The notes beneath the pieces were generated by a model. That model worked only from the letters and a program-made list of their open reading frames with translations, was not told where the DNA came from and ran no database searches. The translations under genes were made by a program, and so were the position numbers. DNA of 54,063 nt from a virus, in the IMG/VR virus record IMGVR_UViG_3300042923_000886, positions 1 to 54,063 of that record; one strand, given 5' to 3'. Of the stretch, positions 4,215 through 54,063 are shown piece after piece (the first letter of the stretch is position 1; each line of letters opens with the position of its first letter).

Positions 4215-4268
4215 AGCAAATAAACTTAAGTGCATGATAGCACAAATTACGATGGAGGTCAATTTATT

Positions 4269-4772
4269 ATGGATAAGAAAATTGTAGAAGTACTAAAAGA
4301 ACTTGGAGTGCCGATGGGTAATCTCGGATTTAAGTACATAAGAGAGGCTATGTATATTCTCAATATTGATCCTAAACAGATAGATGGGATCACGAAGCCA
4401 GGAGGATTGTATTTCACTATAGCAAAGAAATATGGATCAGTTCCGACTAGGGTTGAGAGAGCAATCCGACATGCGATTGAAAGTAGCTTCCTTCATGTAG
4501 ATGTAGATGTTATCCGGAATTACTTTGGTAATACAGCAGATCTAAGCAATGGAAAATTAACGAACCGTAACTTTCTGGCTGCTTTGGCCTATGCGATCAG
4601 TGAGGATAAGCCATCAACAATAGCATTAGATAAGCATGAAATAATAAAGAATAATGATGATAAATCATGCGCTCTTTGCGGAGCTGGACATAAGCTCGTT
4701 AAAGTAGATGATCGTTATCTATGTATGGTATGCCTTCATAAAGCAAATTTAAGTTTAACTGAAAATATTTGA
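4269..4772 (+). CDS. Spo0A C-terminal (effector) domain protein with C-terminal zinc finger
   Basis: A 167-residue protein whose first ~115 residues match the Spo0A DNA-binding domain: ELGVPMGNLGFKYIREA, then IAKKYGSVPT (51-60) and RVERAIRHAIE (61-71), which is the Spo0A recognition-helix signature. The Spo0A receiver domain is absent, so it lacks the phosphorylation control of the host regulator. The C-terminus carries CALCGAG and CMVCLHKA, a probable zinc-binding element. Spo0A is the master regulator of sporulation; an unregulated phage copy could bind 0A boxes or unrelated phage sites. The start at 4269 has gatggagg upstream. Family identity is strong; effect on the host is inference. Confidence 0.88.
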   Translation: MDKKIVEVLKELGVPMGNLGFKYIREAMYILNIDPKQIDGITKPGGLYFTIAKKYGSVPTRVERAIRHAIESSFLHVDVDVIRNYFGNTADLSNGKLTNRNFLAALAYAISEDKPSTIALDKHEIIKNNDDKSCALCGAGHKLVKVDDRYLCMVCLHKANLSLTENI

Positions 4773-5865: not shown

Positions 5866-5873
5866 AAAAATAA

Positions 5874-5992
5874 GCCCGTCCTCTCCATCAAAGAGGGCGG
5901 GCAAGTCAGCAGATATGCTAACTAAAATCTTCAATTAAATAGTAGCATATCCATGGCTAAAAGTCAATAAAATCAAGGGGTTTAGGCTCCTT
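5874..5992 (+). other. Conserved three-hairpin element upstream of the HUH rep gene
   Basis: Hairpin 1 is an 11-bp GC-rich stem (5874-5884 with 5892-5902). Hairpin 2 pairs gatatgcta (5912-5920) with tagcatatc (5943-5951). Hairpin 3 pairs aagggg (5975-5980) with ctcctt (5987-5992). The same order, with identical hairpin-1 arms and a base-pair change in hairpin 3 that keeps pairing, occurs at 43593-43709. It may be a replication origin for the Rep or a regulatory leader. Confidence 0.65.
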
Positions 5993-6033
5993 TGAATAAC
6001 ACTCTAAGTATATTAAAGTTAGGTGAGTCGGAT

Positions 6034-6849
6034 ATGCCATATAGGAAAGATAAATGGACATTCCCTAACTCCAATGAGTATGAGTATAAGTACGCAGGTA
6101 ACTATGGAGCAAAGGGAGAGAAACGATCACCAAAGAGGAAAGCAACCCCGGAGCAGATCCAGAAGCAGAACCAATACAACCGGGAGAAAAAGACCAGAAG
6201 AGAAATCAAGGCGAATTTTGCACCGGAGGATTTATGGGGCACATTCAAATATCCCAAAGGAACTAGAAAACCATTAGAAGAGATTGAAAAGGATATTAAA
6301 TATTTCCATGACAAAATGAGAAAGATTTATAAAAAGCATGGGGAAGTCTACAAATTCATTATTCGATTTGAAATCGGTGAGCATGGAGGAATACATATCC
6401 ACATTCTGATCAATAGACCGCGAAGCATTCCAAATGTTGACCTATTGATACAAGAGATCTGGAAGTTCGGAAGAGTAAACTTCCAATCACTCTATGAATA
6501 CGGTGGATACCAGAAGCTTGCTAACTACATAGTAAAGAAACCGAATAAGGAGCAGGAGAAGCAGCTGAGCCTATTCGAGGAAGAGGATAAAAAGAAATTA
6601 GTCAAATATTCCTCTTCTCGTAACCTCATCCGGCCAGAGCCGGAGCGAAAAGAATATAGACGATGGACTATGCAGAAATTAGTTGAGAATGGTCCGAAAC
6701 CGACACCTGGTTACTATATCGATAAAGACTCAATCCGATACGGTGTAAACGAATATACAGGAATGTCATATTACCAATACACCGAATGTCGGATAAATGA
6801 GATCAAAAGTAGGAGCAGTCCAGAATGGATAGCTTGGGAAGGAGAATAA
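6034..6849 (+). CDS. rep: HUH-type replication-associated protein (ORF2/G2P-like Rep)
   Basis: A 271-residue protein with an HUH metal-binding motif, GGIHIHILIN, in the middle, followed by a GGYQKLANYIVKK helix that carries the likely catalytic tyrosine. These are the hallmarks of HUH endonucleases that nick one strand and start rolling-circle replication. The N-terminal ~60 residues are basic. The ATG at 6034 is preferred over an upstream TTG at 5992 because aggtgag lies just upstream and because 5992 is inside hairpin 3. It lies downstream of SSB and upstream of an RNase H-like gene. Family identity is good; which strand and site it nicks is unknown. Confidence 0.78.
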   Translation: MPYRKDKWTFPNSNEYEYKYAGNYGAKGEKRSPKRKATPEQIQKQNQYNREKKTRREIKANFAPEDLWGTFKYPKGTRKPLEEIEKDIKYFHDKMRKIYKKHGEVYKFIIRFEIGEHGGIHIHILINRPRSIPNVDLLIQEIWKFGRVNFQSLYEYGGYQKLANYIVKKPNKEQEKQLSLFEEEDKKKLVKYSSSRNLIRPEPERKEYRRWTMQKLVENGPKPTPGYYIDKDSIRYGVNEYTGMSYYQYTECRINEIKSRSSPEWIAWEGE

Positions 6850-6853
6850 GAAG

Positions 6854-7282
6854 GTGGAAGTAACAATCTACATAGATGTATATCATACCGGCAACTTAAA
6901 AAACGGTACTGGCACATATAACATCATGCTCGAATACATAGCTCCGGATGGAGCACCAAGGACCAGAGAATATTATGAATGTCTTAAAAATACATCAAAG
7001 AACAGGACAGCCATAAAAGCATGCATCTCAGCTCTGAGCCATATGAAAAAGACCTGCAGTATTAGGATCATCACCAATTCTCAATTTGTAGTAAACTCCA
7101 TGAACCAGAATTGGGATAAGCAGAAAAACGCAGATTTGTGGCAGCAGTTGTTGATGGCCATGTCAGAACATAATGTCACCTTCGAGTACTCCTTCAGTAA
7201 CCAATATTCAACCTATATGTTTATGGCTGCCAAGAGAGCCAATGTCATATTTACGGAGGATGCGTATGAAAATAACTTGTAG
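6854..7282 (+). CDS. RNase H-like fold protein with altered active site
   Basis: A 142-residue protein with an RNase HI-like order: YIDVYHTG (Asp8), a helix NRTAIKACISAL, then IITNSQFVVNS and NADLWQQLL. In active RNase HI the second position is Glu and the third Asp (TDS); here they are Asn/Arg and Asn, so catalysis by the normal two-metal mechanism is unlikely. The prophage 2 homologue at 44653 has the same substitutions, so they are conserved rather than decay. It probably binds RNA:DNA hybrids or a replication partner. Start is GTG after agaagg. It follows rep by 4 bp. Confidence 0.7.
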   Translation: MEVTIYIDVYHTGNLKNGTGTYNIMLEYIAPDGAPRTREYYECLKNTSKNRTAIKACISALSHMKKTCSIRIITNSQFVVNSMNQNWDKQKNADLWQQLLMAMSEHNVTFEYSFSNQYSTYMFMAAKRANVIFTEDAYENNL

Positions 7283-12575: not shown

Positions 12576-12635
12576 GTTGTTTGGTTATTTAGTATACATA
12601 TCACAATGCTTCTGAATGGCCATGTCATAGCTTAT

Positions 12636-12657
12636 CCCGGAGGCAGAGACCTCCGGG
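12636..12657 (+). promoter_or_regulatory. Hairpin just upstream of a ribosome-binding site
   Basis: Eight-base arms cccggagg and cctccggg enclose a 6-nt loop, followed by ggaaagg and the ATG at 12672. The left arm contains an SD-like ggagg that is paired. The two base differences near this hairpin between repeat copies fall in the loop and outside the stem. Confidence 0.55.
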
Positions 12658-12671
12658 GGAAAGGAAACATA

Positions 12672-13196
12672 ATGAATAGAATTACATCGGTTACAGAAGA
12701 TGCTAAAGAAATGGATATGCTCCAGCTGGCATATAATAAAGTTTTTATGAAGGATGGATGGGCATGGTACAGGGATTATGATAGAGAAATTCCGGTGATC
12801 GACCTAATAAAGGAGATAATACATCATCACAATTTTGATGCTGAGTTAATTTGTGCTGATTCGGATGAATTCGGAGATATCATGATGGATAACCTGCAGT
12901 ATGGTACGGATGGTATTGACGGAGTGATAGCAATATTGTATCAGACATTGTGGGCAATGACTGATATGAGAGAGCGATTAAAAACATATGAGGATACTAG
13001 CTTAGAACCAGAGGAAGTAGAAGATCTTAAGAATTCAGAGGACTACTGGCACCGAGAAGCAATCAAATGGGCAGCGCGGTTAGGAGAGAATAAAATCAAA
13101 TTCCGTAATCTACTCAATCAATTCGGAATTCCAGAGGATGATTTCAAGGATGATGAGTTAGAGAAGTTTTTATATTCCAACCGGCAGCAGGATTAA
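12672..13196 (+). CDS. Hypothetical phage protein with LKTYEDTSLEPEEV motif
   Basis: A 174-residue acidic, mostly helical protein. It contains MRERLKTYEDTSLEPEEVEDL, a segment I recognise as recurrent in hypothetical phage proteins of Lachnospiraceae, next to a coiled-coil-like C-terminus. It starts the duplicated segment and is the only gene where the two copies differ (one silent change and Ser to Pro near residue 64). Function unknown. Start supported by gaaagg. Confidence 0.65.
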   Translation: MNRITSVTEDAKEMDMLQLAYNKVFMKDGWAWYRDYDREIPVIDLIKEIIHHHNFDAELICADSDEFGDIMMDNLQYGTDGIDGVIAILYQTLWAMTDMRERLKTYEDTSLEPEEVEDLKNSEDYWHREAIKWAARLGENKIKFRNLLNQFGIPEDDFKDDELEKFLYSNRQQD

Positions 13197-13211
13197 TATA
13201 GGAGGATGCAA

Positions 13212-13775
13212 TTGAAAACCCAAGAGACAATTGATATTGAGAAAAAATTATATTCCAATACAGTAAGAATGGGTGTGTATGGAGCATTCGAGGTTACATT
13301 CGGGAGAGAAAGGGTTGATTACATAACAGTGGACCGTAAAGGGATTTGGAGAGCTTACGAGGTCAAAGTTACGAAAGCTGATTTTCATTCTAAGGCTGCT
13401 AAGAGCTTTATCGGTAATTATAACTATTATGTTATGCCGGAATGGCTGTATGAGGAAGTGAGAGCGGAAATACCTACTCATATAGGAGTAATGGATGGAG
13501 TTAGTGTATTAAAGAAACCTAAGAAAGTACCATTATCATTACCTGTTGAAACGTTGTTTATCAATATTGTATGTGCTCTTAATCGGGAAGCTGATAAATA
13601 TTATAACAATCAGGATGAGGATATTATTGCAAAATATAGAAGAGCATTAGATAGACTCGAAAAAGAAAAGGATAAGAACTATAAAAATATGTGTGAGTGG
13701 ATGGACAAATATTACAGACTTAAGGAAAAAGTTGAGAGCAAAGAGTCTAACCTATTTTCCACAGACACCTGGTAA
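13212..13775 (+). CDS. MmcB-like PD-(D/E)XK nuclease-fold protein
   Basis: A 187-residue protein. The core reads FEVTFGRERVDYITVDRKG then WRAYEVKVTKADF, giving the nuclease-superfamily signature with Asp37 and Glu50-x-Lys52, as in MmcB-like DNA repair proteins. The C-terminal third is a charged helix. The TTG at 13212 is chosen because AGGAGG sits 6 bp before it, whereas it directly touches the ATG at 13206, leaving no spacing. It probably cuts or binds DNA ends in phage recombination. Convergent overlap of 29 bp with the next minus-strand gene. An identical copy lies at 50534. Confidence 0.65.
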   Translation: MKTQETIDIEKKLYSNTVRMGVYGAFEVTFGRERVDYITVDRKGIWRAYEVKVTKADFHSKAAKSFIGNYNYYVMPEWLYEEVRAEIPTHIGVMDGVSVLKKPKKVPLSLPVETLFINIVCALNREADKYYNNQDEDIIAKYRRALDRLEKEKDKNYKNMCEWMDKYYRLKEKVESKESNLFSTDTW

Positions 13776-14031
13776 CATCAAAAATAAGCCTAACTGCCTT
13801 GATCATACCTAAGTCTACATAATCACAATCAAATATAAACTCACCTTTGTTTTCCTTGAAGACTTTAATCTCTTTGATATTAAACCGGTAGCGCATACCA
13901 TCTATTTCAACACCAAAAGAAACAGGTCTAAATTCACCGACAGTGTTATAAACAGCTGTAACGCAGATAGATAGTCCGGATCTCAAAGTATTACGGTTTG
14001 TATAGGGACGAAAGCCAAAGGCAGTAGGCAT
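13747..14031 (-). CDS. Minus-strand accessory gene of unknown function
   Basis: A 94-residue protein predicted to be beta-rich, starting MPTAFGFRPYTN. The ATG at 14031 has gaggtgataact upstream and a near-consensus promoter further up (-35 at 14091, -10 at 14068), so it is transcribed alone, against the early operon. Expression from a prophage is therefore plausible. No family recognised; no membrane segment. Duplicated at 51069. Confidence 0.65.
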   Translation of the reverse strand: MPTAFGFRPYTNRNTLRSGLSICVTAVYNTVGEFRPVSFGVEIDGMRYRFNIKEIKVFKENKGEFIFDCDYVDLGMIKAVRLIFDVTRCLWKIG

Positions 14032-14067
14032 AGTTATCACCTCATTAATATTTATTGACAGTTTATA

Positions 14068-14096
14068 ATTATAGAACATTTGTTTGTATTTTGCAA
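14068..14096 (-). promoter_or_regulatory. Promoter with a LexA-like box in its spacer
   Basis: On the minus strand TTGCAA (14091-14096), a 17-bp spacer and TATAAT (14068-14073) form a good sigma-A promoter. The spacer contains GAACATTTGTTT (14074-14085), which resembles the Gram-positive SOS box GAAC-N4-GTTY. The same 12 bases, inverted, lie at 40224-40235. LexA control is a guess. Confidence 0.5.
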
Positions 14097-14114
14097 GAAG
14101 GGAGATATAGGAAC

Positions 14115-14549
14115 ATGGCAATATTGAATTATACAACGACCATAGATGCATTTAAGACGGTATCTGAGATCGAATACATATTGATGAAGCATAAGGCTAA
14201 ATCAATCATGAAGGAATTCAATGGAGAAAGTATCACAGGATTATCCTTTTTGATTGATACCGGATTTAATCAAGTACCAATAAAGATGCCGGTCAAGGTT
14301 AATGAATGTTTAGCTGTTCTGAAGAGAGAAAAGCGAAGTGGTACAAGAACGATAAAGGATACCAAAGATCAGGCTGAGAGAGTAGCATGGAGAATTCTGA
14401 AGGATTGGATAGAGGCTCAGATGGCACTATTGGATATTGAGATGGTTCGTATGGAAGAGATATTCATGCCTTACATAGTTGATGCAGCCGGCCGGACACT
14501 GTATGAGAAGCTGGAAGAGAAGCAATTTCTTCTGACAACTCAGGAATAG
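14115..14549 (+). CDS. Conserved phage hypothetical protein
   Basis: A 144-residue protein starting MAILNYTTTIDAFKTVSEIE, a pattern I recognise as common in hypothetical phage proteins of Clostridia; the second half (KDTKDQAERVAWRILKDWIEAQ) is helical. The family is widespread but without known function. The start at 14115 has agggagatatagga upstream. Identical copy at 51437. Confidence 0.65.
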   Translation: MAILNYTTTIDAFKTVSEIEYILMKHKAKSIMKEFNGESITGLSFLIDTGFNQVPIKMPVKVNECLAVLKREKRSGTRTIKDTKDQAERVAWRILKDWIEAQMALLDIEMVRMEEIFMPYIVDAAGRTLYEKLEEKQFLLTTQE

Positions 14550-14560
14550 GAGGAAGTAAT

Positions 14561-14830
14561 TTGACACTAAATGAAATTAAGGATGGAGTAATGGCACGTT
14601 TTGTAGCCGGGGAAGAGGTAACCATCCGAATAATCAACGATAAAGGAAAGACAACCGGTACATATAAGGCAACAATAGATAGGTTTTGCCCTTCCCATAT
14701 AAGCGTATTTCATAACAATTATTATGAGAGCTTCTCCTATTGGGAATTCATGAAGTATGCAGTAAAGTACAATCAGAAGAAGAGATCAGGAGAAAAGCCG
14801 GCTAGGGTAAGAAGATCAAAGTACGCGTAG
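14561..14830 (+). CDS. Small basic phage protein
   Basis: An 89-residue protein with TTG start, supported by aggagg 7 bp upstream. Beta-rich N-terminal part and a strongly basic tail (KKRSGEKPARVRRSKYA) that may bind nucleic acid. Family unknown. Identical copy at 51883. Confidence 0.6.
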   Translation: MTLNEIKDGVMARFVAGEEVTIRIINDKGKTTGTYKATIDRFCPSHISVFHNNYYESFSYWEFMKYAVKYNQKKRSGEKPARVRRSKYA

Positions 14831-14879
14831 TTGATAAGGTAAATTAAGATTTAGCTCATTGAGCGGAAAGAAGGTAACT

Positions 14880-15233
14880 ATGAAAAAAGCAATAGAAATT
14901 CAACAGGAAAATGCAAAAACTCTCTTTGAACTTATTAAGGAGAACCCAGATTTACCAATTGTTCCTATGGTAGCAACGGAAATCGCTGCTAGTGATGATT
15001 ACTCATACTGGATGGGTAGTTGGGGTAAGGCAGAAATAGATAGTTACACTTGTCATGATGATCATATGGTTTATTTATCAGACGGAGTTAATGATATCTT
15101 TGATGATGTCCTAGAGGATACACTGGAAATACCGGACGGATTGACAGAAGAGGAACAAGATAAATTTATCGAAGATGCGGTTATGGGGCTCGATTGGACA
15201 AAGGCAATTATTGTTAGAATTGAACTTCCATAA
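14880..15233 (+). CDS. Acidic hypothetical phage protein
   Basis: A 117-residue, strongly acidic protein (MKKAIEIQQENAKTLF at the start; many Asp/Glu later). The ATG at 14880 has agaagg upstream; a perfect small hairpin, gctc-att-gagc (14854-14864), stands just before the ribosome-binding site. No motif recognised. An acidic, small phage protein could be a DNA mimic, but nothing specific supports that. Identical copy at 52202. Confidence 0.6.
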   Translation: MKKAIEIQQENAKTLFELIKENPDLPIVPMVATEIAASDDYSYWMGSWGKAEIDSYTCHDDHMVYLSDGVNDIFDDVLEDTLEIPDGLTEEEQDKFIEDAVMGLDWTKAIIVRIELP

Positions 15234-15261
15234 TAAGCTCATTGGAGCAGAAAGGATTTAT

Positions 15262-15627
15262 ATGGTTGAGGGTAAGCTAAGAGTTATTCAAGGTGGAAGC
15301 GTAACATTCTGGTATCCCGGGTGTAAAGAATACCATTCAATACATGTTGAAGGATCAGAACATCCAGTATGGAGTTTCAATGGTGATTATGAGAGTCCAA
15401 CGTTTACTCCATCAGTATTAGTCTGAAGCGGTCATTATGTACCAGGAGCAAAGAGTGATGATTGCTGGTGTAACTTCAAGGAACGTTTTCCAGAGGAAGA
15501 GGAACCACCTTTTAAGTGCGGCATATGTCATAGCTTTGTTACCAATGGAAAGATACAGTATCTCGGAGATTGCACCCATGAATTAGCAGGTCAGACAATC
15601 GACATGGTACTGCCAAGTGAGTGCTAA
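15262..15627 (+). pseudogene. DUF6527-family phage protein interrupted by an in-frame TGA
   Basis: The frame opens MVEGKLRVIQGG and contains the DUF6527 pattern: FWYPGCKEYHSI, ESPTFTPSVLV, then a TGA at 15424-15426, then SGHYVPG, CWCNF, CGICHSFV and LGDCTHELAGQTIDM, in the same frame to a stop at 15625-15627. The two halves together make a normal-length member (about 121 residues), so the TGA is most simply a nonsense change of an ancestral codon such as CGA. The N-terminal 54 residues are still translatable. The identical TGA is in the second copy at 52746. Readthrough cannot be excluded. Confidence 0.75.
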
Positions 15628-15664
15628 ACTGAAAAATTTATAATTGTACATTGAAAACTGAATA

Positions 15665-15693
15665 TTGATAGTTGATAGTAATAACTATATAAT
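15665..15693 (+). promoter_or_regulatory. Promoter of the DUF6602 cassette
   Basis: TTGATA (15665-15670), 17-bp spacer, TATAAT (15688-15693). It lies 36 bp before the DUF6602 start and is the only consensus promoter within this part of the early operon, suggesting independent expression in the lysogen. Confidence 0.65.
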
Positions 15694-15729
15694 GGACGTA
15701 GGAATAACATTAGAATAGGGGATAGATAT

Positions 15730-16536
15730 ATGAATGCTGTTATAGGTGCAATTATTGAAAATATGAAAAACATAGAAATAATCTTTGAACCAACTATTGA
15801 AGCTTTCGTAAAAGACACAAAACACACTGGTGATAGCAAAGAAGTGACTGTTGCAAATTTTATTGGAAGCTTCTTCCCAAGTTCATATGCTATAAAAAAA
15901 GGTCCTATCTATAATTTGGAATCTAATTCTCAAGAAATTGATTGTGTAATTTTGGCTCCAAATCATCCACTGCTTTTAACTCCTAAAAGGGAAGTGATTT
16001 TAGCTGAAGGGGTATATGCTGCAGTCGAGGTCAAGCCAGATATTACAACTTTAACTAATAAATCAGAATTCCATCGCGCATTATTACAAATACAATCAGT
16101 GAAAAAACTAAAAAGAACTTTACGTCTTTTGGATACTGGAAGTGTTCCTGATGAATTACAAAGAATACCATCAGTAATATTTTCAAAAAAATCAAGAACA
16201 GCGATTGAAACTATTGAGTATATGAAAAGAAGTATAAAAAGTGAAGCTATTGCACCATTTGAATTACCAGATTTAATTTTTACAATGGATCATGGTTTGA
16301 TTTATCATACTACTCATATAGAGAAAACTATTTTTACCGAATGGGTAAAACAATATTCTTCTTCTTATAATGGAGAAAGGTTTATACATATAGATACAAT
16401 GGGTGAAAATAGCTTGACGATGTTTTTAATAATTCTATTAAGTTTTAGGCCACCTGAACCTACGATATCTAATCATATTATTTTAGAATATTTAAAGGAT
16501 TCTATTAGTGTCCCATTTCATGTGATGATGCCTTAA
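15730..16536 (+). CDS. DUF6602 protein with PD-(D/E)XK nuclease-like core
   Basis: A 268-residue protein with the DUF6602 pattern: EVTVANFIGSFFPSSYAI, then EIDCVIL (Asp71) and AEGVYAAVEVKPD (Glu100, Lys102), which together make a restriction-nuclease-like active site with Glu38. DUF6602 proteins occur near restriction and antiphage genes, so a defence or superinfection role is plausible. The gene is noticeably AT-rich compared with neighbours and is bracketed by its own promoter and a strong terminator, the layout of a phage moron. A site (aggggat) precedes the ATG. Fold assignment is fairly good; target unknown. Identical copy at 53052. Confidence 0.7.
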   Translation: MNAVIGAIIENMKNIEIIFEPTIEAFVKDTKHTGDSKEVTVANFIGSFFPSSYAIKKGPIYNLESNSQEIDCVILAPNHPLLLTPKREVILAEGVYAAVEVKPDITTLTNKSEFHRALLQIQSVKKLKRTLRLLDTGSVPDELQRIPSVIFSKKSRTAIETIEYMKRSIKSEAIAPFELPDLIFTMDHGLIYHTTHIEKTIFTEWVKQYSSSYNGERFIHIDTMGENSLTMFLIILLSFRPPEPTISNHIILEYLKDSISVPFHVMMP

Positions 16537-16545
16537 ATGTTTATG

Positions 16546-16583
16546 AACTACCAACTATCAGTATTCGGTTGGTAGTTTTTTAT
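16546..16583 (+). terminator. Rho-independent terminator after DUF6602
   Basis: A 10-bp perfect stem, aactaccaac (16546-16555) with gttggtagtt (16568-16577), followed by a T run. It ends the DUF6602 cassette. Confidence 0.85.
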
Positions 16584-16629
16584 TGCGACAAACTGAAATT
16601 TAGCTGCATGGCAGCAGAAAGGAATAACA

Positions 16630-16845
16630 ATGGCACAGAGAGATATTATCAGACCAAAGGTTACATATCACAATGCTACAGACATGGCCTATTATCCAAA
16701 CGACCTAAAGACTGAATTGCAGTGGAAAAAGCTCGGATATAAACTAAAAGATAATGCTGAAGAATTCAAATTATGGTCAAACCCTCATCATCATAATTTA
16801 TGTAGATATTATTTACGCGAGGATGTTGAGGAGATTCATAAGTGA
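16630..16845 (+). CDS. Small hypothetical phage protein
   Basis: A 71-residue protein beginning MAQRDIIRPKVTYHN, with an HHHN histidine cluster near residue 53. A hairpin (gctgc-atg-gcagc, 16603-16615) and agaaagg precede the ATG. No family recognised. Its first 112 bp are repeated at the right end of the window. Confidence 0.55.
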   Translation: MAQRDIIRPKVTYHNATDMAYYPNDLKTELQWKKLGYKLKDNAEEFKLWSNPHHHNLCRYYLREDVEEIHK

Positions 16846-36669: not shown

Positions 36670-37482
36670 TTAATATCCTACTGCTTTGACACCATATTCG
36701 GCTTGATCACTTGTAAATCCTTCATACACCAATTGGTCGATTAGTTCTGTGCGTGAGAATGAAGAGGTATCAAGATAATTTTGCGCGCAGGCTGTAGCTT
36801 GTTCATTCCAATCTGCGCCACAGTTATCAGCACCATATGTAGCTTCATCAGTTGTATATTTTTCATATTCTAACTGTTCAATCAACCCACTATATGAGAA
36901 TGAAGTGGTATCAAGGTAGTTTAAAGCAGCAGCTAATGCTTGTTCATTCCAATTTGCACCACAGTTATCAGCCGCAAAAGTTGCATCTTCAATAGAATAA
37001 TTTTCATATTCTAATTGATCAATAAGGCCAAAATAAGAAAATGGCGTAAAAGACAAATAGTTATTAGCAGACTTTAATGCGTTTTCCTCCGACAATGTCA
37101 TTTCGGAAACAGTTGTTTCTTCTGTCGGGGTTATCGTAGGCTCTAAAGTAGGTTTCTCAGTTGGAACAACTTTGTTATCACTCTCCACTGCAGTTTCTGT
37201 TATATCTGCAGAATAATCTGTTGTTATGCTGGCATCATCGCCTTGGTTCATCATAGATCCAATCACACCTATCATGAAAAATAATCCAATAACAATCAGG
37301 ATAGCGGTTAAGCAACCGCGCTTTTTCTTTTTAGGTTGTTGCGTATAAGGACTTTGCTGATATTGTTGTTCAAGTATAACTGGCGGTGGTACTTGCTGTG
37401 ATTGATTTTGCTGTTGTGCCGGAGTTCCACAACTTGAGCAAAAATTACCACTGAATTCTGTTCCGCATTTATTACATATCAT
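36670..37482 (-). CDS. Ltp-repeat membrane protein with zinc ribbon, likely superinfection exclusion
   Basis: A 270-residue protein. An N-terminal zinc ribbon (CNKCGTEFSGNFCSSCG) faces the cytoplasm, a single membrane segment lies near residues 55-78, and a Thr/Glu-rich linker follows. The C-terminus has three ~47-residue repeats with NY-LSFTPFSYFGLIDQLEYENYS, DATFAADNCGANWNEQA. These are host cell surface-exposed lipoprotein (Ltp, PF07553) repeats, known from the streptococcal phage TP-J34 protein that blocks DNA entry of other phages. Here the anchor is a transmembrane helix and no lipobox is seen. A consensus promoter (37519-37547) precedes it, so it should be expressed in lysogens. Exclusion function is inferred from family. 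Confidence 0.85.
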   Translation of the reverse strand: MICNKCGTEFSGNFCSSCGTPAQQQNQSQQVPPPVILEQQYQQSPYTQQPKKKKRGCLTAILIVIGLFFMIGVIGSMMNQGDDASITTDYSADITETAVESDNKVVPTEKPTLEPTITPTEETTVSEMTLSEENALKSANNYLSFTPFSYFGLIDQLEYENYSIEDATFAADNCGANWNEQALAAALNYLDTTSFSYSGLIEQLEYEKYTTDEATYGADNCGADWNEQATACAQNYLDTSSFSRTELIDQLVYEGFTSDQAEYGVKAVGY

Positions 37483-39714: not shown

Positions 39715-40074
39715 TTATAAACCGAATTGGGCTTTAAGTACAACTTTGCCGTCTTGAAAAGTAATATTAGCATTAGAAATTCCGTTATATCCATACCATA
39801 TATAAATCTGAGTAGCATATTCGTTTCCAATGCCTAAATCAACGGAACTAAGTAATTCGCCTTGTTCACCTATAATGTTAGAGACATCTTCATATGACAT
39901 TCCGATTTGTATACTATTAAATTCAGATTTAGAAATACCTTTATTATTCATAGAATGGATTATAATGTATGATACACTTATTATTATAATAAGTGAACAA
40001 ACAACAACAAATATAATTTTATAAACATCTTTAAAGAAATCATTATTAAATTGTTCTAAATCATCAGCCTTCAT
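39715..40074 (-). CDS. Membrane-anchored SmpA/BLIP-like protein
   Basis: A 119-residue protein with one hydrophobic segment (YKIIFVVVCSLIIIISVSYIII) and an outer domain SEFNSIQIGMSYEDVSNIIGEQGEL then IWYGYNGISNANITFQDGKVV, typical of the SmpA/OmlA- or DUF3862-type small fold. It probably lies outside the membrane. Aligned with ATG 40074 because aaggtgg precedes. Its role in the prophage is unknown, perhaps lysogenic conversion. Confidence 0.6.
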   Translation of the reverse strand: MKADDLEQFNNDFFKDVYKIIFVVVCSLIIIISVSYIIIHSMNNKGISKSEFNSIQIGMSYEDVSNIIGEQGELLSSVDLGIGNEYATQIYIWYGYNGISNANITFQDGKVVLKAQFGL

Positions 40075-40223
40075 TTGTATGACCACCTTCCATATTATAG
40101 GAATATAATAAACCCATTAAGCGGAAAAAGCAATTATAAAAACTATATATCAAACTAGCTTAATAAAATAAATAAAATAATATTGGGTTCAATACCTTTA
40201 GACAATACTTTAAAAAATAATGC

Positions 40224-43449: not shown

Positions 43450-43606
43450 CGGAATCACCAGAGTTACCGATGCATTATGGACAGTAAGCTGTCCGGAATG
43501 CGGACATGATAACTGGAGTCTTACATATGGATGGGTGTGTCCGGTTTGCGGATCAGTAAATGCAGTATATACCAATCCAACGGTAAAAATAAGCCCGTCC
43601 TCTTAG
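43400..43606 (+). CDS. Small zinc-ribbon protein ending in the hairpin element
   Basis: A 68-residue protein, MQSTVTKKESKIRYYN, with CPECGHDNWSLTYGWVCPVCGS, a clear zinc ribbon. ATG 43400 has ggaggtg upstream and overlaps the SSB end by 50 bp. Its stop codon lies inside the first hairpin of the conserved element. Prophage 1 lacks this gene. Confidence 0.6.
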   Translation: MQSTVTKKESKIRYYNDGITRVTDALWTVSCPECGHDNWSLTYGWVCPVCGSVNAVYTNPTVKISPSS

Positions 43607-43709
43607 GCGAGAGGGCGGGCAAGTCAGCCAATATGCTAACGAAATCTGATATAAAAATCTTAGCATATAAGCGTCTGAAAGTCAAGAAAATAAGAGGTTT
43701 TGACCTCTT
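43593..43709 (+). other. Conserved three-hairpin element upstream of rep, prophage 2 copy
   Basis: Hairpin 1: gcccgtcctct (43593-43603) with agagggcgggc (43610-43620). Hairpin 2: atatgctaa (43631-43639) with ttagcatat (43660-43668). Hairpin 3: aagagg (43692-43697) with cctctt (43704-43709), followed by T. Same order and sequences as at 5874-5992, with covarying base pairs in hairpin 3. Confidence 0.65.
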
Positions 43710-43784
43710 TTCCCGACCTTGTAATAGGTATTATTTCAACAACCATCACTTAGACAATTACATAATAGGAGTGTATATCTGTTC

Positions 43785-44636
43785 ATGGCTAAGATTTATG
43801 ATTATGATCCAGATGATATATACGACAGAGAAATCCTTGGAGAAGAGACACACGAAGAAAAGATAGAGCAGCTTAGAGGTAAGAATTATCAGTACGTGGT
43901 GAAAACGGTTGTGAGCGGACAAGTAGTAGAGAGTGAGATCTATCCGGTATACACCAATAAAAGGAATACTCCACGCAAGGATAAGGAGAAACCATCCAGA
44001 GGAGCACAAAGAAACTTAAATGATAAAAATGCTAAGAAGAAGATCACTCGATTAGTTAATGCGAATTTCACATCAAAGGATCTGGCGGTAACTCTTACTT
44101 ATGCGGATCATTATCTTCCGACAGAGGAGCAAGCAAGAAAAGATATGCAAAACTTCCTCAGGAGATTGAAACGGTACCGGAAAAAGAATGGGCTTCCTGA
44201 TCTGAAATATATCTATGTACTCGGTTGTGTCCCGGAGGGTAAGGCTACAAAGAAGGTTAGAGTTCATCACCATTTGATCATTAATGAAATGGACCGGGAT
44301 GTAGTAGAGAGCTTCTGGGATAAAGGAAGAAGGGAAACAAAAAGATTACAGCCGGATGATTTTGGGTTCGAGGGTTTGGCTAGATACATGGCGAACCAGA
44401 ACTGCGGATCCAAACGATGGTATGCTTCTAGGAACCTTCAGCAACCAAAGGTATATAAGAGCTATACCAAATTATCAAAGCGAAAAGCAGAGAAACTCTT
44501 TCGTATGGAGCTAGATCACGAAGAGACGTTTGAAAAGATGTACAAGGGCAAGTATAAATTTACTGACTGTAAGAGGTATGAGAGTAATTTCACTGGAGGA
44601 TTTTATTTATACTGCCACATGATCAGAAAAGATTGA
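43785..44636 (+). CDS. rep: HUH-type Rep (ORF2/G2P family), prophage 2
   Basis: A 283-residue protein with NANFTSKDLAVTLTYADHYLPTEEQ, RKDMQNFLRRLKRYRKK and the HUH motif VRVHHHLIIN, then FGFEGLARYMANQ with the candidate tyrosine. This is a textbook ORF2/G2P-type Rep. It shares its position with the prophage 1 Rep but is only distantly similar. The ribosome-binding site is weak (aggag is 13 bp upstream). It likely nicks the nearby hairpin element. Confidence 0.85.
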   Translation: MAKIYDYDPDDIYDREILGEETHEEKIEQLRGKNYQYVVKTVVSGQVVESEIYPVYTNKRNTPRKDKEKPSRGAQRNLNDKNAKKKITRLVNANFTSKDLAVTLTYADHYLPTEEQARKDMQNFLRRLKRYRKKNGLPDLKYIYVLGCVPEGKATKKVRVHHHLIINEMDRDVVESFWDKGRRETKRLQPDDFGFEGLARYMANQNCGSKRWYASRNLQQPKVYKSYTKLSKRKAEKLFRMELDHEETFEKMYKGKYKFTDCKRYESNFTGGFYLYCHMIRKD

Positions 44637-44652
44637 GAAAGGATGAGAGATA

Positions 44653-45111
44653 GTGGAGGTAACGATTTATATTGATGCATACCATACGGGACACCTCAAA
44701 TATGGTACAGGTACATACAATATGCTCCTGGAGTATATCACAGATAAGGGACCGGTAACGAAGCAGGTATACGGAGGGATCAGAAAGACAACAGCGAACC
44801 GGACAGCGGTTGCTGCCTGCATAGATGCCTTGGAGCAAATTGTTCTACCATGTGATATTGAGATAGTAATCAACTCGGAGTATGTGACACAGGCTATTAA
44901 TTCAAATGAATGGTTTAAGTGGATGAATACCGGTAAGAACGCAAAGGGGAAGCCGGCCAAGAATATGGACCTATGGCAGCGGCTCTTTGAACTGGTAGAC
45001 AAGTATCATGTGACATTTGAATATGCAAAGAGCAATCAATATACGCTGTGCATGATATCAATGGCCAAGAAAGTAAAGATTGAATTTAAGGAGGATGAAG
45101 GCAATGTTTGA
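44653..45111 (+). CDS. RNase H-like fold protein, prophage 2
   Basis: A 152-residue homologue of 6854-7282. It has YIDAYHTGHLKYGTGTYN, then NRTAVAACIDALEQ and IVINSEYVTQA, so the same Asn replacements at the second and third catalytic positions. GTG start after aaagga. Overlaps the AcrIIA9-like gene by 8 bp. Confidence 0.7.
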   Translation: MEVTIYIDAYHTGHLKYGTGTYNMLLEYITDKGPVTKQVYGGIRKTTANRTAVAACIDALEQIVLPCDIEIVINSEYVTQAINSNEWFKWMNTGKNAKGKPAKNMDLWQRLFELVDKYHVTFEYAKSNQYTLCMISMAKKVKIEFKEDEGNV

Positions 45112-49899: not shown

Positions 49900-49957
49900 T
49901 TTAGAGCCATTTAGTATACATATCACAATGCTTCTGAATGGCCATGTCATAGCTAAT

Positions 49958-49979
49958 CCCGGAGGCTGAGACCTCCGGG
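49958..49979 (+). promoter_or_regulatory. Hairpin upstream of a ribosome-binding site, copy 2
   Basis: Same 8-bp stem as at 12636-12657 with one loop base changed. Confidence 0.55.
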
Positions 49980-49993
49980 GGAAAGGAAACATA

Positions 49994-50518
49994 ATGAATA
50001 GAATTACATCGGTTACAGAAGATGCTAAAGAAATGGATATGCTCCAGCTGGCATATAATAAAGTCTTTATGAAGGATGGATGGGCATGGTACAGGGATTA
50101 TGATAGAGAAATTCCGGTGATCGACCTAATAAAGGAGATAATACATCATCACAATTTTGATGCTGAGTTAATTTGTGCTGATCCGGATGAATTCGGAGAT
50201 ATCATGATGGATAACCTGCAGTATGGTACGGATGGTATTGACGGAGTGATAGCAATATTGTATCAGACATTGTGGGCAATGACTGATATGAGAGAGCGAT
50301 TAAAAACATATGAGGATACTAGCTTAGAACCAGAGGAAGTAGAAGATCTTAAGAATTCAGAGGACTACTGGCACCGAGAAGCAATCAAATGGGCAGCGCG
50401 GTTAGGAGAGAATAAAATCAAATTCCGTAATCTACTCAATCAATTCGGAATTCCAGAGGATGATTTCAAGGATGATGAGTTAGAGAAGTTTTTATATTCC
50501 AACCGGCAGCAGGATTAA
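49994..50518 (+). CDS. Hypothetical phage protein, second copy
   Basis: Second copy of 12672-13196, differing by one silent base and one Ser-to-Pro change near residue 64. See that entry for the description. Confidence 0.65.
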   Translation: MNRITSVTEDAKEMDMLQLAYNKVFMKDGWAWYRDYDREIPVIDLIKEIIHHHNFDAELICADPDEFGDIMMDNLQYGTDGIDGVIAILYQTLWAMTDMRERLKTYEDTSLEPEEVEDLKNSEDYWHREAIKWAARLGENKIKFRNLLNQFGIPEDDFKDDELEKFLYSNRQQD

Positions 50519-50533
50519 TATAGGAGGATGCAA

Positions 50534-51097
50534 TTGAAAACCCAAGAGACAATTGATATTGAGAAAAAATTATATTCCAATACAGTAAGAATGGGTGTGT
50601 ATGGAGCATTCGAGGTTACATTCGGGAGAGAAAGGGTTGATTACATAACAGTGGACCGTAAAGGGATTTGGAGAGCTTACGAGGTCAAAGTTACGAAAGC
50701 TGATTTTCATTCTAAGGCTGCTAAGAGCTTTATCGGTAATTATAACTATTATGTTATGCCGGAATGGCTGTATGAGGAAGTGAGAGCGGAAATACCTACT
50801 CATATAGGAGTAATGGATGGAGTTAGTGTATTAAAGAAACCTAAGAAAGTACCATTATCATTACCTGTTGAAACGTTGTTTATCAATATTGTATGTGCTC
50901 TTAATCGGGAAGCTGATAAATATTATAACAATCAGGATGAGGATATTATTGCAAAATATAGAAGAGCATTAGATAGACTCGAAAAAGAAAAGGATAAGAA
51001 CTATAAAAATATGTGTGAGTGGATGGACAAATATTACAGACTTAAGGAAAAAGTTGAGAGCAAAGAGTCTAACCTATTTTCCACAGACACCTGGTAA
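50534..51097 (+). CDS. MmcB-like nuclease-fold protein, second copy
   Basis: Identical to 13212-13775, including the TTG start and AGGAGG at the same spacing. Confidence 0.65.
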   Translation: MKTQETIDIEKKLYSNTVRMGVYGAFEVTFGRERVDYITVDRKGIWRAYEVKVTKADFHSKAAKSFIGNYNYYVMPEWLYEEVRAEIPTHIGVMDGVSVLKKPKKVPLSLPVETLFINIVCALNREADKYYNNQDEDIIAKYRRALDRLEKEKDKNYKNMCEWMDKYYRLKEKVESKESNLFSTDTW

Positions 51098-51353
51098 CAT
51101 CAAAAATAAGCCTAACTGCCTTGATCATACCTAAGTCTACATAATCACAATCAAATATAAACTCACCTTTGTTTTCCTTGAAGACTTTAATCTCTTTGAT
51201 ATTAAACCGGTAGCGCATACCATCTATTTCAACACCAAAAGAAACAGGTCTAAATTCACCGACAGTGTTATAAACAGCTGTAACGCAGATAGATAGTCCG
51301 GATCTCAAAGTATTACGGTTTGTATAGGGACGAAAGCCAAAGGCAGTAGGCAT
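51069..51353 (-). CDS. Minus-strand accessory gene, second copy
   Basis: Identical to 13747-14031, with the same promoter and LexA-like box. Confidence 0.65.
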   Translation of the reverse strand: MPTAFGFRPYTNRNTLRSGLSICVTAVYNTVGEFRPVSFGVEIDGMRYRFNIKEIKVFKENKGEFIFDCDYVDLGMIKAVRLIFDVTRCLWKIG

Positions 51354-51389
51354 AGTTATCACCTCATTAATATTTATTGACAGTTTATA

Positions 51390-51418
51390 ATTATAGAACA
51401 TTTGTTTGTATTTTGCAA
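51390..51418 (-). promoter_or_regulatory. Promoter with LexA-like box, second copy
   Basis: Identical to 14068-14096; the box is at 51396-51407. Confidence 0.5.
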
Positions 51419-51436
51419 GAAGGGAGATATAGGAAC

Positions 51437-51871
51437 ATGGCAATATTGAATTATACAACGACCATAGATGCATTTAAGACGGTATCTGAGATCGAATACA
51501 TATTGATGAAGCATAAGGCTAAATCAATCATGAAGGAATTCAATGGAGAAAGTATCACAGGATTATCCTTTTTGATTGATACCGGATTTAATCAAGTACC
51601 AATAAAGATGCCGGTCAAGGTTAATGAATGTTTAGCTGTTCTGAAGAGAGAAAAGCGAAGTGGTACAAGAACGATAAAGGATACCAAAGATCAGGCTGAG
51701 AGAGTAGCATGGAGAATTCTGAAGGATTGGATAGAGGCTCAGATGGCACTATTGGATATTGAGATGGTTCGTATGGAAGAGATATTCATGCCTTACATAG
51801 TTGATGCAGCCGGCCGGACACTGTATGAGAAGCTGGAAGAGAAGCAATTTCTTCTGACAACTCAGGAATAG
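51437..51871 (+). CDS. Conserved phage hypothetical protein, second copy
   Basis: Identical to 14115-14549. Confidence 0.65.
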   Translation: MAILNYTTTIDAFKTVSEIEYILMKHKAKSIMKEFNGESITGLSFLIDTGFNQVPIKMPVKVNECLAVLKREKRSGTRTIKDTKDQAERVAWRILKDWIEAQMALLDIEMVRMEEIFMPYIVDAAGRTLYEKLEEKQFLLTTQE

Positions 51872-51882
51872 GAGGAAGTAAT

Positions 51883-52152
51883 TTGACACTAAATGAAATT
51901 AAGGATGGAGTAATGGCACGTTTTGTAGCCGGGGAAGAGGTAACCATCCGAATAATCAACGATAAAGGAAAGACAACCGGTACATATAAGGCAACAATAG
52001 ATAGGTTTTGCCCTTCCCATATAAGCGTATTTCATAACAATTATTATGAGAGCTTCTCCTATTGGGAATTCATGAAGTATGCAGTAAAGTACAATCAGAA
52101 GAAGAGATCAGGAGAAAAGCCGGCTAGGGTAAGAAGATCAAAGTACGCGTAG
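51883..52152 (+). CDS. Small basic phage protein, second copy
   Basis: Identical to 14561-14830. Confidence 0.6.
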   Translation: MTLNEIKDGVMARFVAGEEVTIRIINDKGKTTGTYKATIDRFCPSHISVFHNNYYESFSYWEFMKYAVKYNQKKRSGEKPARVRRSKYA

Positions 52153-52201
52153 TTGATAAGGTAAATTAAGATTTAGCTCATTGAGCGGAAAGAAGGTAAC
52201 T

Positions 52202-52555
52202 ATGAAAAAAGCAATAGAAATTCAACAGGAAAATGCAAAAACTCTCTTTGAACTTATTAAGGAGAACCCAGATTTACCAATTGTTCCTATGGTAGCAACG
52301 GAAATCGCTGCTAGTGATGATTACTCATACTGGATGGGTAGTTGGGGTAAGGCAGAAATAGATAGTTACACTTGTCATGATGATCATATGGTTTATTTAT
52401 CAGACGGAGTTAATGATATCTTTGATGATGTCCTAGAGGATACACTGGAAATACCGGACGGATTGACAGAAGAGGAACAAGATAAATTTATCGAAGATGC
52501 GGTTATGGGGCTCGATTGGACAAAGGCAATTATTGTTAGAATTGAACTTCCATAA
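52202..52555 (+). CDS. Acidic hypothetical phage protein, second copy
   Basis: Identical to 14880-15233. Confidence 0.6.
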   Translation: MKKAIEIQQENAKTLFELIKENPDLPIVPMVATEIAASDDYSYWMGSWGKAEIDSYTCHDDHMVYLSDGVNDIFDDVLEDTLEIPDGLTEEEQDKFIEDAVMGLDWTKAIIVRIELP

Positions 52556-52583
52556 TAAGCTCATTGGAGCAGAAAGGATTTAT

Positions 52584-52949
52584 ATGGTTGAGGGTAAGCT
52601 AAGAGTTATTCAAGGTGGAAGCGTAACATTCTGGTATCCCGGGTGTAAAGAATACCATTCAATACATGTTGAAGGATCAGAACATCCAGTATGGAGTTTC
52701 AATGGTGATTATGAGAGTCCAACGTTTACTCCATCAGTATTAGTCTGAAGCGGTCATTATGTACCAGGAGCAAAGAGTGATGATTGCTGGTGTAACTTCA
52801 AGGAACGTTTTCCAGAGGAAGAGGAACCACCTTTTAAGTGCGGCATATGTCATAGCTTTGTTACCAATGGAAAGATACAGTATCTCGGAGATTGCACCCA
52901 TGAATTAGCAGGTCAGACAATCGACATGGTACTGCCAAGTGAGTGCTAA
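52584..52949 (+). pseudogene. DUF6527-family protein with in-frame TGA, second copy
   Basis: Identical to 15262-15627, including the in-frame TGA at 52746-52748. Confidence 0.75.
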
Positions 52950-52986
52950 ACTGAAAAATTTATAATTGTACATTGAAAACTGAATA

Positions 52987-53015
52987 TTGATAGTTGATAG
53001 TAATAACTATATAAT
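52987..53015 (+). promoter_or_regulatory. Promoter of the DUF6602 cassette, second copy
   Basis: Identical to 15665-15693 (TTGATA, 17 bp, TATAAT). Confidence 0.65.
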
Positions 53016-53051
53016 GGACGTAGGAATAACATTAGAATAGGGGATAGATAT

Positions 53052-53858
53052 ATGAATGCTGTTATAGGTGCAATTATTGAAAATATGAAAAACATAGAAA
53101 TAATCTTTGAACCAACTATTGAAGCTTTCGTAAAAGACACAAAACACACTGGTGATAGCAAAGAAGTGACTGTTGCAAATTTTATTGGAAGCTTCTTCCC
53201 AAGTTCATATGCTATAAAAAAAGGTCCTATCTATAATTTGGAATCTAATTCTCAAGAAATTGATTGTGTAATTTTGGCTCCAAATCATCCACTGCTTTTA
53301 ACTCCTAAAAGGGAAGTGATTTTAGCTGAAGGGGTATATGCTGCAGTCGAGGTCAAGCCAGATATTACAACTTTAACTAATAAATCAGAATTCCATCGCG
53401 CATTATTACAAATACAATCAGTGAAAAAACTAAAAAGAACTTTACGTCTTTTGGATACTGGAAGTGTTCCTGATGAATTACAAAGAATACCATCAGTAAT
53501 ATTTTCAAAAAAATCAAGAACAGCGATTGAAACTATTGAGTATATGAAAAGAAGTATAAAAAGTGAAGCTATTGCACCATTTGAATTACCAGATTTAATT
53601 TTTACAATGGATCATGGTTTGATTTATCATACTACTCATATAGAGAAAACTATTTTTACCGAATGGGTAAAACAATATTCTTCTTCTTATAATGGAGAAA
53701 GGTTTATACATATAGATACAATGGGTGAAAATAGCTTGACGATGTTTTTAATAATTCTATTAAGTTTTAGGCCACCTGAACCTACGATATCTAATCATAT
53801 TATTTTAGAATATTTAAAGGATTCTATTAGTGTCCCATTTCATGTGATGATGCCTTAA
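53052..53858 (+). CDS. DUF6602 nuclease-like protein, second copy
   Basis: Identical to 15730-16536, with the same promoter and terminator. Confidence 0.7.
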   Translation: MNAVIGAIIENMKNIEIIFEPTIEAFVKDTKHTGDSKEVTVANFIGSFFPSSYAIKKGPIYNLESNSQEIDCVILAPNHPLLLTPKREVILAEGVYAAVEVKPDITTLTNKSEFHRALLQIQSVKKLKRTLRLLDTGSVPDELQRIPSVIFSKKSRTAIETIEYMKRSIKSEAIAPFELPDLIFTMDHGLIYHTTHIEKTIFTEWVKQYSSSYNGERFIHIDTMGENSLTMFLIILLSFRPPEPTISNHIILEYLKDSISVPFHVMMP

Positions 53859-53867
53859 ATGTTTATG

Positions 53868-53905
53868 AACTACCAACTATCAGTATTCGGTTGGTAGTTT
53901 TTTAT
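53868..53905 (+). terminator. Terminator after DUF6602, second copy
   Basis: Identical to 16546-16583. Confidence 0.85.
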
Positions 53906-53951
53906 TGCGACAAACTGAAATTTAGCTGCATGGCAGCAGAAAGGAATAACA

Positions 53952-54063
53952 ATGGCACAGAGAGATATTATCAGACCAAAGGTTACATATCACAATGCTA
54001 CAGACATGGCCTATTATCCAAACGACCTAAAGACTGAATTGCAGTGGAAAAAGCTCGGATATA
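53952..54063 (+). CDS. Small hypothetical phage protein, second copy, 3' cut by the window end
   Basis: First 112 bp of the gene at 16630-16845, identical so far as visible. Confidence 0.55.
   Translation, partial: MAQRDIIRPKVTYHNATDMAYYPNDLKTELQWKKLGY

Follow-up and report, generated by a model that had tools for sequence, protein, structure and literature searches.

Two neighbouring prophages lie in the window (the whole 54,063-nt stretch of viral DNA analysed here, IMG/VR record IMGVR_UViG_3300042923_000886), and each carries a compact element of three hairpins flanked by an SSB-family gene on its 5' side and an HUH rep gene on its 3' side. The question raised by this locus is what such an element does in front of a rolling-circle initiator. 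A first-pass annotation had proposed a double-strand origin with ATATGCTAAC as a possible nick site, or alternatively a leader controlling rep. The evidence presented here favours the second option in a more specific form: the element is probably an antisense-RNA control region of the rolling-circle rep in both prophages, with the likely origin being separate and adjacent.

The element and its genomic setting

The phage genes in the window include those for a terminase, a portal, a major head protein, an integrase and repressors. Coordinates, blastn and folding confirm two three-hairpin copies between the SSB gene and rep (Table 1); in copy 2, a short overlapping gene follows the SSB-family gene ahead of the element. 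When the window is compared with itself by blastn, the two copies are seen to be homologous (78% identity over 120 bp, E=3e-13), and all dinucleotide shuffles (200 per copy) fold worse than the native sequences, with z-scores of -7.7 for copy 1 and -5.4 for copy 2. A covariance model search of the window recovers these two copies as its only element matches, and Rfam yields no match at the gathering score across the window. The finer claims of the initial description stand in part: the GC hairpin 1 is present in both copies, but its stem is not perfectly Watson-Crick, there being a T.G wobble on the plus strand of both (in the relative L046 it is fully Watson-Crick). Likewise, hairpin 3 is kept as a structure across the family (own versus mismatched-locus pairing, z 5.4), but the compensatory G-C/A-T change is a loose description of what are different sequences of similar shape in the two copies.

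Both Reps are HUH initiators of the PF23343/phrog_3584 type (PF23343 match at E 2e-15 and 5e-11) rather than RepA_N-type initiators, and the HxH histidines along with the following Tyr are invariant across 13 Reps. The start of rep 1 is most likely ATG 6034 and not TTG 5992, and the element therefore lies wholly upstream of this gene. The two Rep proteins are only about 23% identical, despite their homologous upstream elements. As the element is shared at 78% (5866-5983 and 43585-43700) by prophages with only distantly related Reps, the sequences suggest that the control module has been exchanged independently of rep and of the origin block.

Several other features of the window are worth recording. 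An RNase H-family gene directly follows each rep (6854-7282 and 44653-45111) and is a possible partner in the replication module, and the gene at 4230-4772, upstream of the SSB gene, encodes a prophage protein bearing the C-terminal DNA-binding domain of Spo0A (PF08769, E 5e-23). The two prophages also share a block of 4155 bp at 99.9% identity (12587-16741 versus 49909-54063). Its second copy stops precisely where the record does, so this repeat is probably where the contig was broken. A direct repeat of about 130 bp with 80% identity (36754-36882/36895-37023) lies inside a minus-strand ORF (36670-37482), and another minus-strand ORF beside the integrase (39715-40086) matches PHROG 6148, annotated as the beta-lactamase-inhibitor protein BLIP (E 4e-18).

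Table 1. Coordinates of the rep genes and of the features observed or predicted upstream of them.
Feature	Position	Strand	Remarks
rep 1	6034-6849	+	HUH initiator, PF23343 REP_ORF2-G2P; phrog_3584
Copy 1, three-hairpin element	about 5866-5995		upstream of rep 1
Copy 1, predicted antisense (counter-transcribed) RNA	5867-5932	-	promoter and terminator on minus strand
Copy 1, hairpin 1	5874-5902		GC hairpin; from sequence and terminator search
Copy 1, hairpin 1 as putative antisense intrinsic terminator	5874-5902	-	GC hairpin, then TTATTTTTTT
Copy 1, AAGTCAGC	5903-5910		directly after hairpin 1
Copy 1, hairpin 2 arms	5912-5920 / 5943-5951		
Copy 1, UP	5912-5920	+	left arm of hairpin 2, in antisense target
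Copy 1, antisense -10 TACTAT	5939-5944	-	preceded by TGC extended -10
Copy 1, MID	5945-5961	+	17-bp antisense promoter spacer
Copy 1, AAAGTCAA	5960-5967		
Copy 1, antisense -35 TTGACT	5962-5967	-	
Copy 1, hairpin 3	5973-5995	+	structure conserved, sequence variable; 3 bp beyond 5992
Copy 1, candidate origin/nick block AACACTCTAAGTATATTAAAGTTAG	5998-6022	+	compared with relatives of the rep1 lineage (L220, L223, L236, L259)
Copy 1, DOWN GGATATGC	6030-6037	+	includes rep ATG 6034; perfect complement of MID 5945-5952
rep 2	43785-44636	+	HUH initiator, PF23343; phrog_3584
Copy 2, three-hairpin element	about 43588-43709		upstream of rep 2
Copy 2, predicted antisense RNA	43587-43650	-	about 64 nt
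Copy 2, hairpin 1	43593-43620		
Copy 2, hairpin 1 as putative antisense terminator	43593-43620	-	
Copy 2, hairpin 2 arms	43631-43639 / 43660-43668		
Copy 2, UP	43631-43639	+	left arm of hairpin 2
Copy 2, -10 region plus 17-bp spacer	43655-43679	+	
Copy 2, antisense -10 TAAGAT	43657-43662	-	17-bp spacer
Copy 2, antisense -35 TTGACT	43680-43685	-	
Copy 2, hairpin 3	43692-43709; to 43711 with T run	+	intrinsic-terminator-like on plus strand
Copy 2, candidate double-strand origin GACCTTGTAATAGGTATTA	43715-43733	+	family motif, 25.7 bits
Copy 2, DOWN CTAAGATTT	43789-43797	+	just past rep ATG 43785

Association of the element with rep

The claimed tie of the element to Rep holds beyond the window: a covariance model built from five copies and run, without regard to rep, against 299 Lachnospiraceae genomes matched at 21 places, and 19 of these are directly upstream of a Rep match. 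Of the two without a Rep, one falls inside a secY-like coding sequence and is false, and the other is a weak match in a phage region. In two loci a weak second match to the model precedes the main one by about 1.5 kb (L240 335-451 and L267 379-495; E 0.06-0.08). A plain pattern search of IMG/VR with AAGTCAGC-N1-6-ATATGCTAA was discarded: all but one of its 43 matches are without the hairpin and apparently arose by chance, the lone true relative being L036/L046.

A predicted minus-strand transcription unit upstream of rep

On the minus strand, the element reads as a complete transcription unit. In copy 1, TTGACT, a 17-bp spacer and TACTAT are followed after about 65 nt by the GC hairpin and then TTATTTTTTT, and copy 2 shows the same arrangement with TTGACT-17-TAAGAT; for this reason hairpin 1 is most plausibly the terminator of a short RNA in antisense orientation. 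The predicted RNA of copy 1 (about 65 nt, with an approximate 5' end at 5931-5935) folds at -27.8 kcal/mol into two hairpins with an unstructured 5' tail. By the same token, AAAGTCAA would contain the complement of the antisense -35, and the antisense promoter spacer would take in the right arm of hairpin 2. Close relatives have comparable promoters (TTGACT-17-TATTAT in L046, with TATAAT in L047 and TATCCT in L048 as the -10). Family-wide, the stem of hairpin 1 contains 45 A.C oppositions (i.e., G.U on the minus strand) versus 23 G.T, which is the bias expected of an antisense-RNA terminator on the minus strand.

For a wider survey, 246 Rep relatives were collected and reduced to 116 at 75% Rep identity, and the 500 bp upstream of each rep were scanned for an intrinsic terminator downstream of a sigma-70 promoter, with a score of at least 15 being required. 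Such a unit occurs on the minus strand in 68/116 of these regions and on the plus strand in 1/116; the same scan returned it in 1.7% of shuffles and, in neighbouring DNA, in 4/225 (minus) and 2/225 (plus) cases. The comparison with shuffles gives a Fisher p of ~1e-54, which is nominal because the loci are related. The promoter-to-terminator distance is mostly 55-90 nt, and among the antisense promoters of 59 loci the -35 is TTGACT in 33, the -10 is TATAAT in 29 and the spacer is 17 bp in 50. The hosts with the unit span Lachnospiraceae, Clostridium, Terrisporobacter, Paenibacillus and lactobacilli. Since most of these loci bear no obvious sequence likeness to the element of the window, it is the layout of the unit and not its letters that is conserved. 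The unit is missing at this score (<15) in 48/116 relatives, and no more than a poor candidate is present in the Butyrivibrio phage Arawn. A further set of 35 loci from other genomes splits by Rep similarity: where the Rep shares 44% identity or more with the earlier set (22 loci), the unit scores at least 15 in 17; among the 13 with remote Reps, most of them from a Bacilli search, it appears in one only, and there marginally.

Predicted alternative pairings in the rep leader

In the RepA_N plasmids pSK41, pSK1 and pSA564, the rep leader can adopt either an UP-MID pairing (ON) or a MID-DOWN pairing that hides the rep ribosome-binding site (OFF), the two being mutually exclusive (PMC8129170, PMC5703833). 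Because the staphylococcal MID pairs with either UP or the rep ribosome-binding site, the pairing of MID with the rep start was tested in the phage loci by cutting the leader into segments and comparing own-locus pairing energies with those of mismatched loci. UP and MID pair at -11.6 kcal/mol in their own locus versus -6.0 kcal/mol in mismatched ones (z 10.3, 59 loci), and in the segment-by-segment comparison pairs other than hairpin 2 (UP-MID) and hairpin 3 are near chance. When MID is set against the rep start, the corresponding values are -10.9 versus -7.4 kcal/mol (z 6.9-7.9), and in a sliding window this pairing peaks at -10..+14 of the start codon, with limits of about -20..+24 and little or no signal elsewhere. 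The controls (UP-start, hairpin 1-start and hairpin 3-start) remain at chance, with z about 0-1. Both Rep lineages show the MID-start pairing separately (z 5.4 and 4.4), and a replicate on 13 further loci that had not been used before gives z 5.1 for UP-MID and z 3.2 for MID-start.

In the window, GCATATCC of copy 1 (5945-5952) has two possible partners, UP and the GGATATGC of the rep start, and in copy 2 AAATCTTAG (43655-43663) complements CTAAGATTT perfectly. The case is weaker for copy 2: its standard MID segment ranks at a non-significant 0.58, the pairing draws on the -10 region, and MID and DOWN are paired even in the free fold. Across the loci, blocking the antisense target in silico raises the number of MID-start pairs per locus from 2.9 to 6.5, as against 2.6 with a shuffled MID (p 3e-8), and makes the rep start less accessible than it is with a shuffled MID (p 1e-5). 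On average the predicted accessibility falls only a little, from 0.43 to 0.39, and over the averaged -14..+6 interval no fall is seen for either copy of the window.

A candidate origin between hairpin 3 and rep

Rolling-circle initiators of phiX174 and pC194 nick at CTTG^ATA. De novo motif discovery in the regions preceding rep recovered CYTG-WAATNGGTATTAAC, which resembles this site, at no less than 8 bits in 77/116 loci; for the most part it is 20-130 bp ahead of rep, in the interval that separates hairpin 3 from the gene. In copy 2, the nick would be placed after CTTG (43721/43722). The block of copy 1 is a drifted form of CTTGATAAG-ATATTAAAGTTA, the motif having drifted in the rep1 lineage. 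Relatives that are without the three-hairpin sequence of the window still carry the nick-motif block, and since hairpin sequences vary while this block is kept, the CTTG-TAATAGGTATTA block is a better origin candidate than ATATGCTAAC. As a motif conserved in about two-thirds of the Rep family lies there, an origin is probably located right next to the element. The hairpins were also considered as binding structures recognised by Rep, which was rejected, their sequences changing freely while Rep and the nick motif stay.

Proposed mechanism and competing explanations

The alternative of a leader controlling rep, raised in the first-pass annotation, is thus supported by the promoter-terminator unit and the UP-MID/MID-DOWN complementarity, and it can be made specific as an antisense RNA acting on an ON/OFF leader. 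In the proposed mechanism, a strong sigma-70-type promoter on the minus strand would direct an antisense RNA of about 65 nt ending at hairpin 1, and the rep messenger is assumed to arise by read-through of the element from the early operon and so to carry UP, MID and DOWN. UP would be the antisense target and the left arm of hairpin 2; MID, a 17-nt sense copy of the promoter spacer, would be its right arm; and DOWN would be the ribosome-binding and start region of rep. Without the antisense RNA, UP and MID would be paired as hairpin 2 (ON), leaving the rep start usable. The amount of antisense RNA would follow the copy number, and upon covering hairpin 1 of the leader and UP it would free MID, whose pairing with DOWN would close the rep start (OFF) and lower Rep. 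Hairpin 3, located between MID and DOWN, would shorten the intervening loop, though it may also terminate transcription; either role, spacer or attenuator, is possible. The replication origin would be a separate block of the CTTG-TAATAGGTATTA type between hairpin 3 and rep.

Attenuation could in principle be the whole of the story, with the antisense RNA controlling rep through transcription termination at hairpin 3, in the style of pT181 or pIP501, instead of through hiding of the start. The conserved structure of hairpin 3 noted above fits this, as does the T run that follows it in copy 2 and in many relatives of the rep1 lineage; a hairpin with a T tail at <=-4 kcal is present in 40/68 loci versus 16 expected by shuffling. 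However, the reverse strand gives such hairpins in 26/68, so that the strand preference is only moderate, no anti-terminator pairing is seen (UP, MID and hairpin 1 are near chance against either arm of hairpin 3), and MID pairs with the rep start instead. Attenuation on its own is therefore unlikely, but both processes may be at work, by analogy with what has been proposed for pSA564 (PMC8129170).

The remaining explanations place the element in DNA replication itself. It might be a single-strand (lagging-strand) origin, with RNA polymerase reading the folded displaced plus strand and the minus-strand RNA serving as a primer. RNA from a minus-strand promoter would indeed complement the displaced plus strand, and the G.T versus A.C counts fail to separate RNA from ssDNA, as there is no clear G.T excess in either the UP-MID helix (26 versus 17) or the MID-DOWN helix (14 versus 10). 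Yet a primer needs no conserved terminator 55-90 nt downstream, the -10 and -35 are only partly within a hairpin (paired fraction 0.1-0.5), and the complementarity of MID to the rep start is not predicted by such an origin, which makes it very improbable. Least credible of all is the original proposal of the whole element as the double-strand origin. Its position directly upstream of an HUH rep and its richness in hairpins would suit it, but promoter, terminator and switch logic account for those hairpins, whose sequences vary while the Reps stay similar, and the conserved phiX/pC194-like nick motif is outside the element, next to rep. The supposed nick site ATATGCTAAC is an arm of hairpin 2 that overlaps the antisense target and is not conserved in Rep relatives.

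Comparison with known systems and implications

The predicted antisense-RNA switch finds its closest parallels in plasmids. The antisense RNA of pSK41 is about 83 nt long, with two hairpins, the second of which is the terminator, and a free 5' tail, and the target in systems of this type is well upstream of the rep start (PMC8129170, PMC5703833). The phage element resembles pSK41, pSK1 and pSA564 in its predicted short two-hairpin antisense RNA and its UP/MID/DOWN leader. Several features set it apart from pSK41 and pSA564: an HUH rolling-circle Rep takes the place of RepA_N, it is found in tailed (pro)phages of diverse Firmicutes, the 17-bp antisense promoter spacer and MID are one and the same, DOWN often spans the start codon and first codons, and the likely origin is within the MID-DOWN loop. 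The element most likely works like the control of pSK41/pSA564 and yet would serve phage rolling-circle initiators.

A parallel might also be struck with pT181, a rolling-circle replicon in which RNAI, an 87-nt counter-transcribed RNA, acts against a rep leader with a terminator-like hairpin before rep (PMC5703833). The phage loci share with it rolling-circle replication and a predicted counter-transcribed RNA, and their hairpin 3 before rep may likewise be terminator-like. In them, however, a search for a pre-emptor that pairs with the terminator arm found none, MID would target the translation start, and the Rep family differs from the Rep_trans of pT181. Like the origins of pC194, pUB110 and phiX174, these loci have CTTG, then TAAT or ATAA, and TATTA a short way ahead of an HUH rep, but the motif is extended (CTTGTAATAGGTATTA) and the Reps belong to PF23343 rather than Rep_1.

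The usual picture of phage replication is a burst that follows induction, and setting copy number through antisense RNA is something that plasmids do. That the rolling-circle initiators of tailed phages should have a conserved antisense switch points to plasmid-like limits on replication, the possible purposes of which include a silent lysogen, the timing of replication or the exclusion of relatives. In the open-access collection searched, outside which many subscription journals lie, no description of a phage rolling-circle rep controlled by antisense RNA was found. It can be put forward tentatively, at somewhat less than an even chance, that these loci represent a large undescribed class of temperate tailed phages of Firmicutes whose rolling-circle initiator is under plasmid-style, and so incompatibility-like, copy-number control by antisense RNA, with the antisense promoter's spacer doubling as the moving arm of the messenger switch. 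As relatives differ completely in sequence, the RNA might possibly act as a sequence-specific factor of superinfection or replication immunity. In practical terms, the UP-MID-DOWN arrangement amounts to a computable rule that predicts the antisense RNA, the start site and the origin for hundreds of unannotated phage rep genes, and the Latilactobacillus phage TMW 1.1365 P1, being a cultured and induced phage, is suited to testing it.
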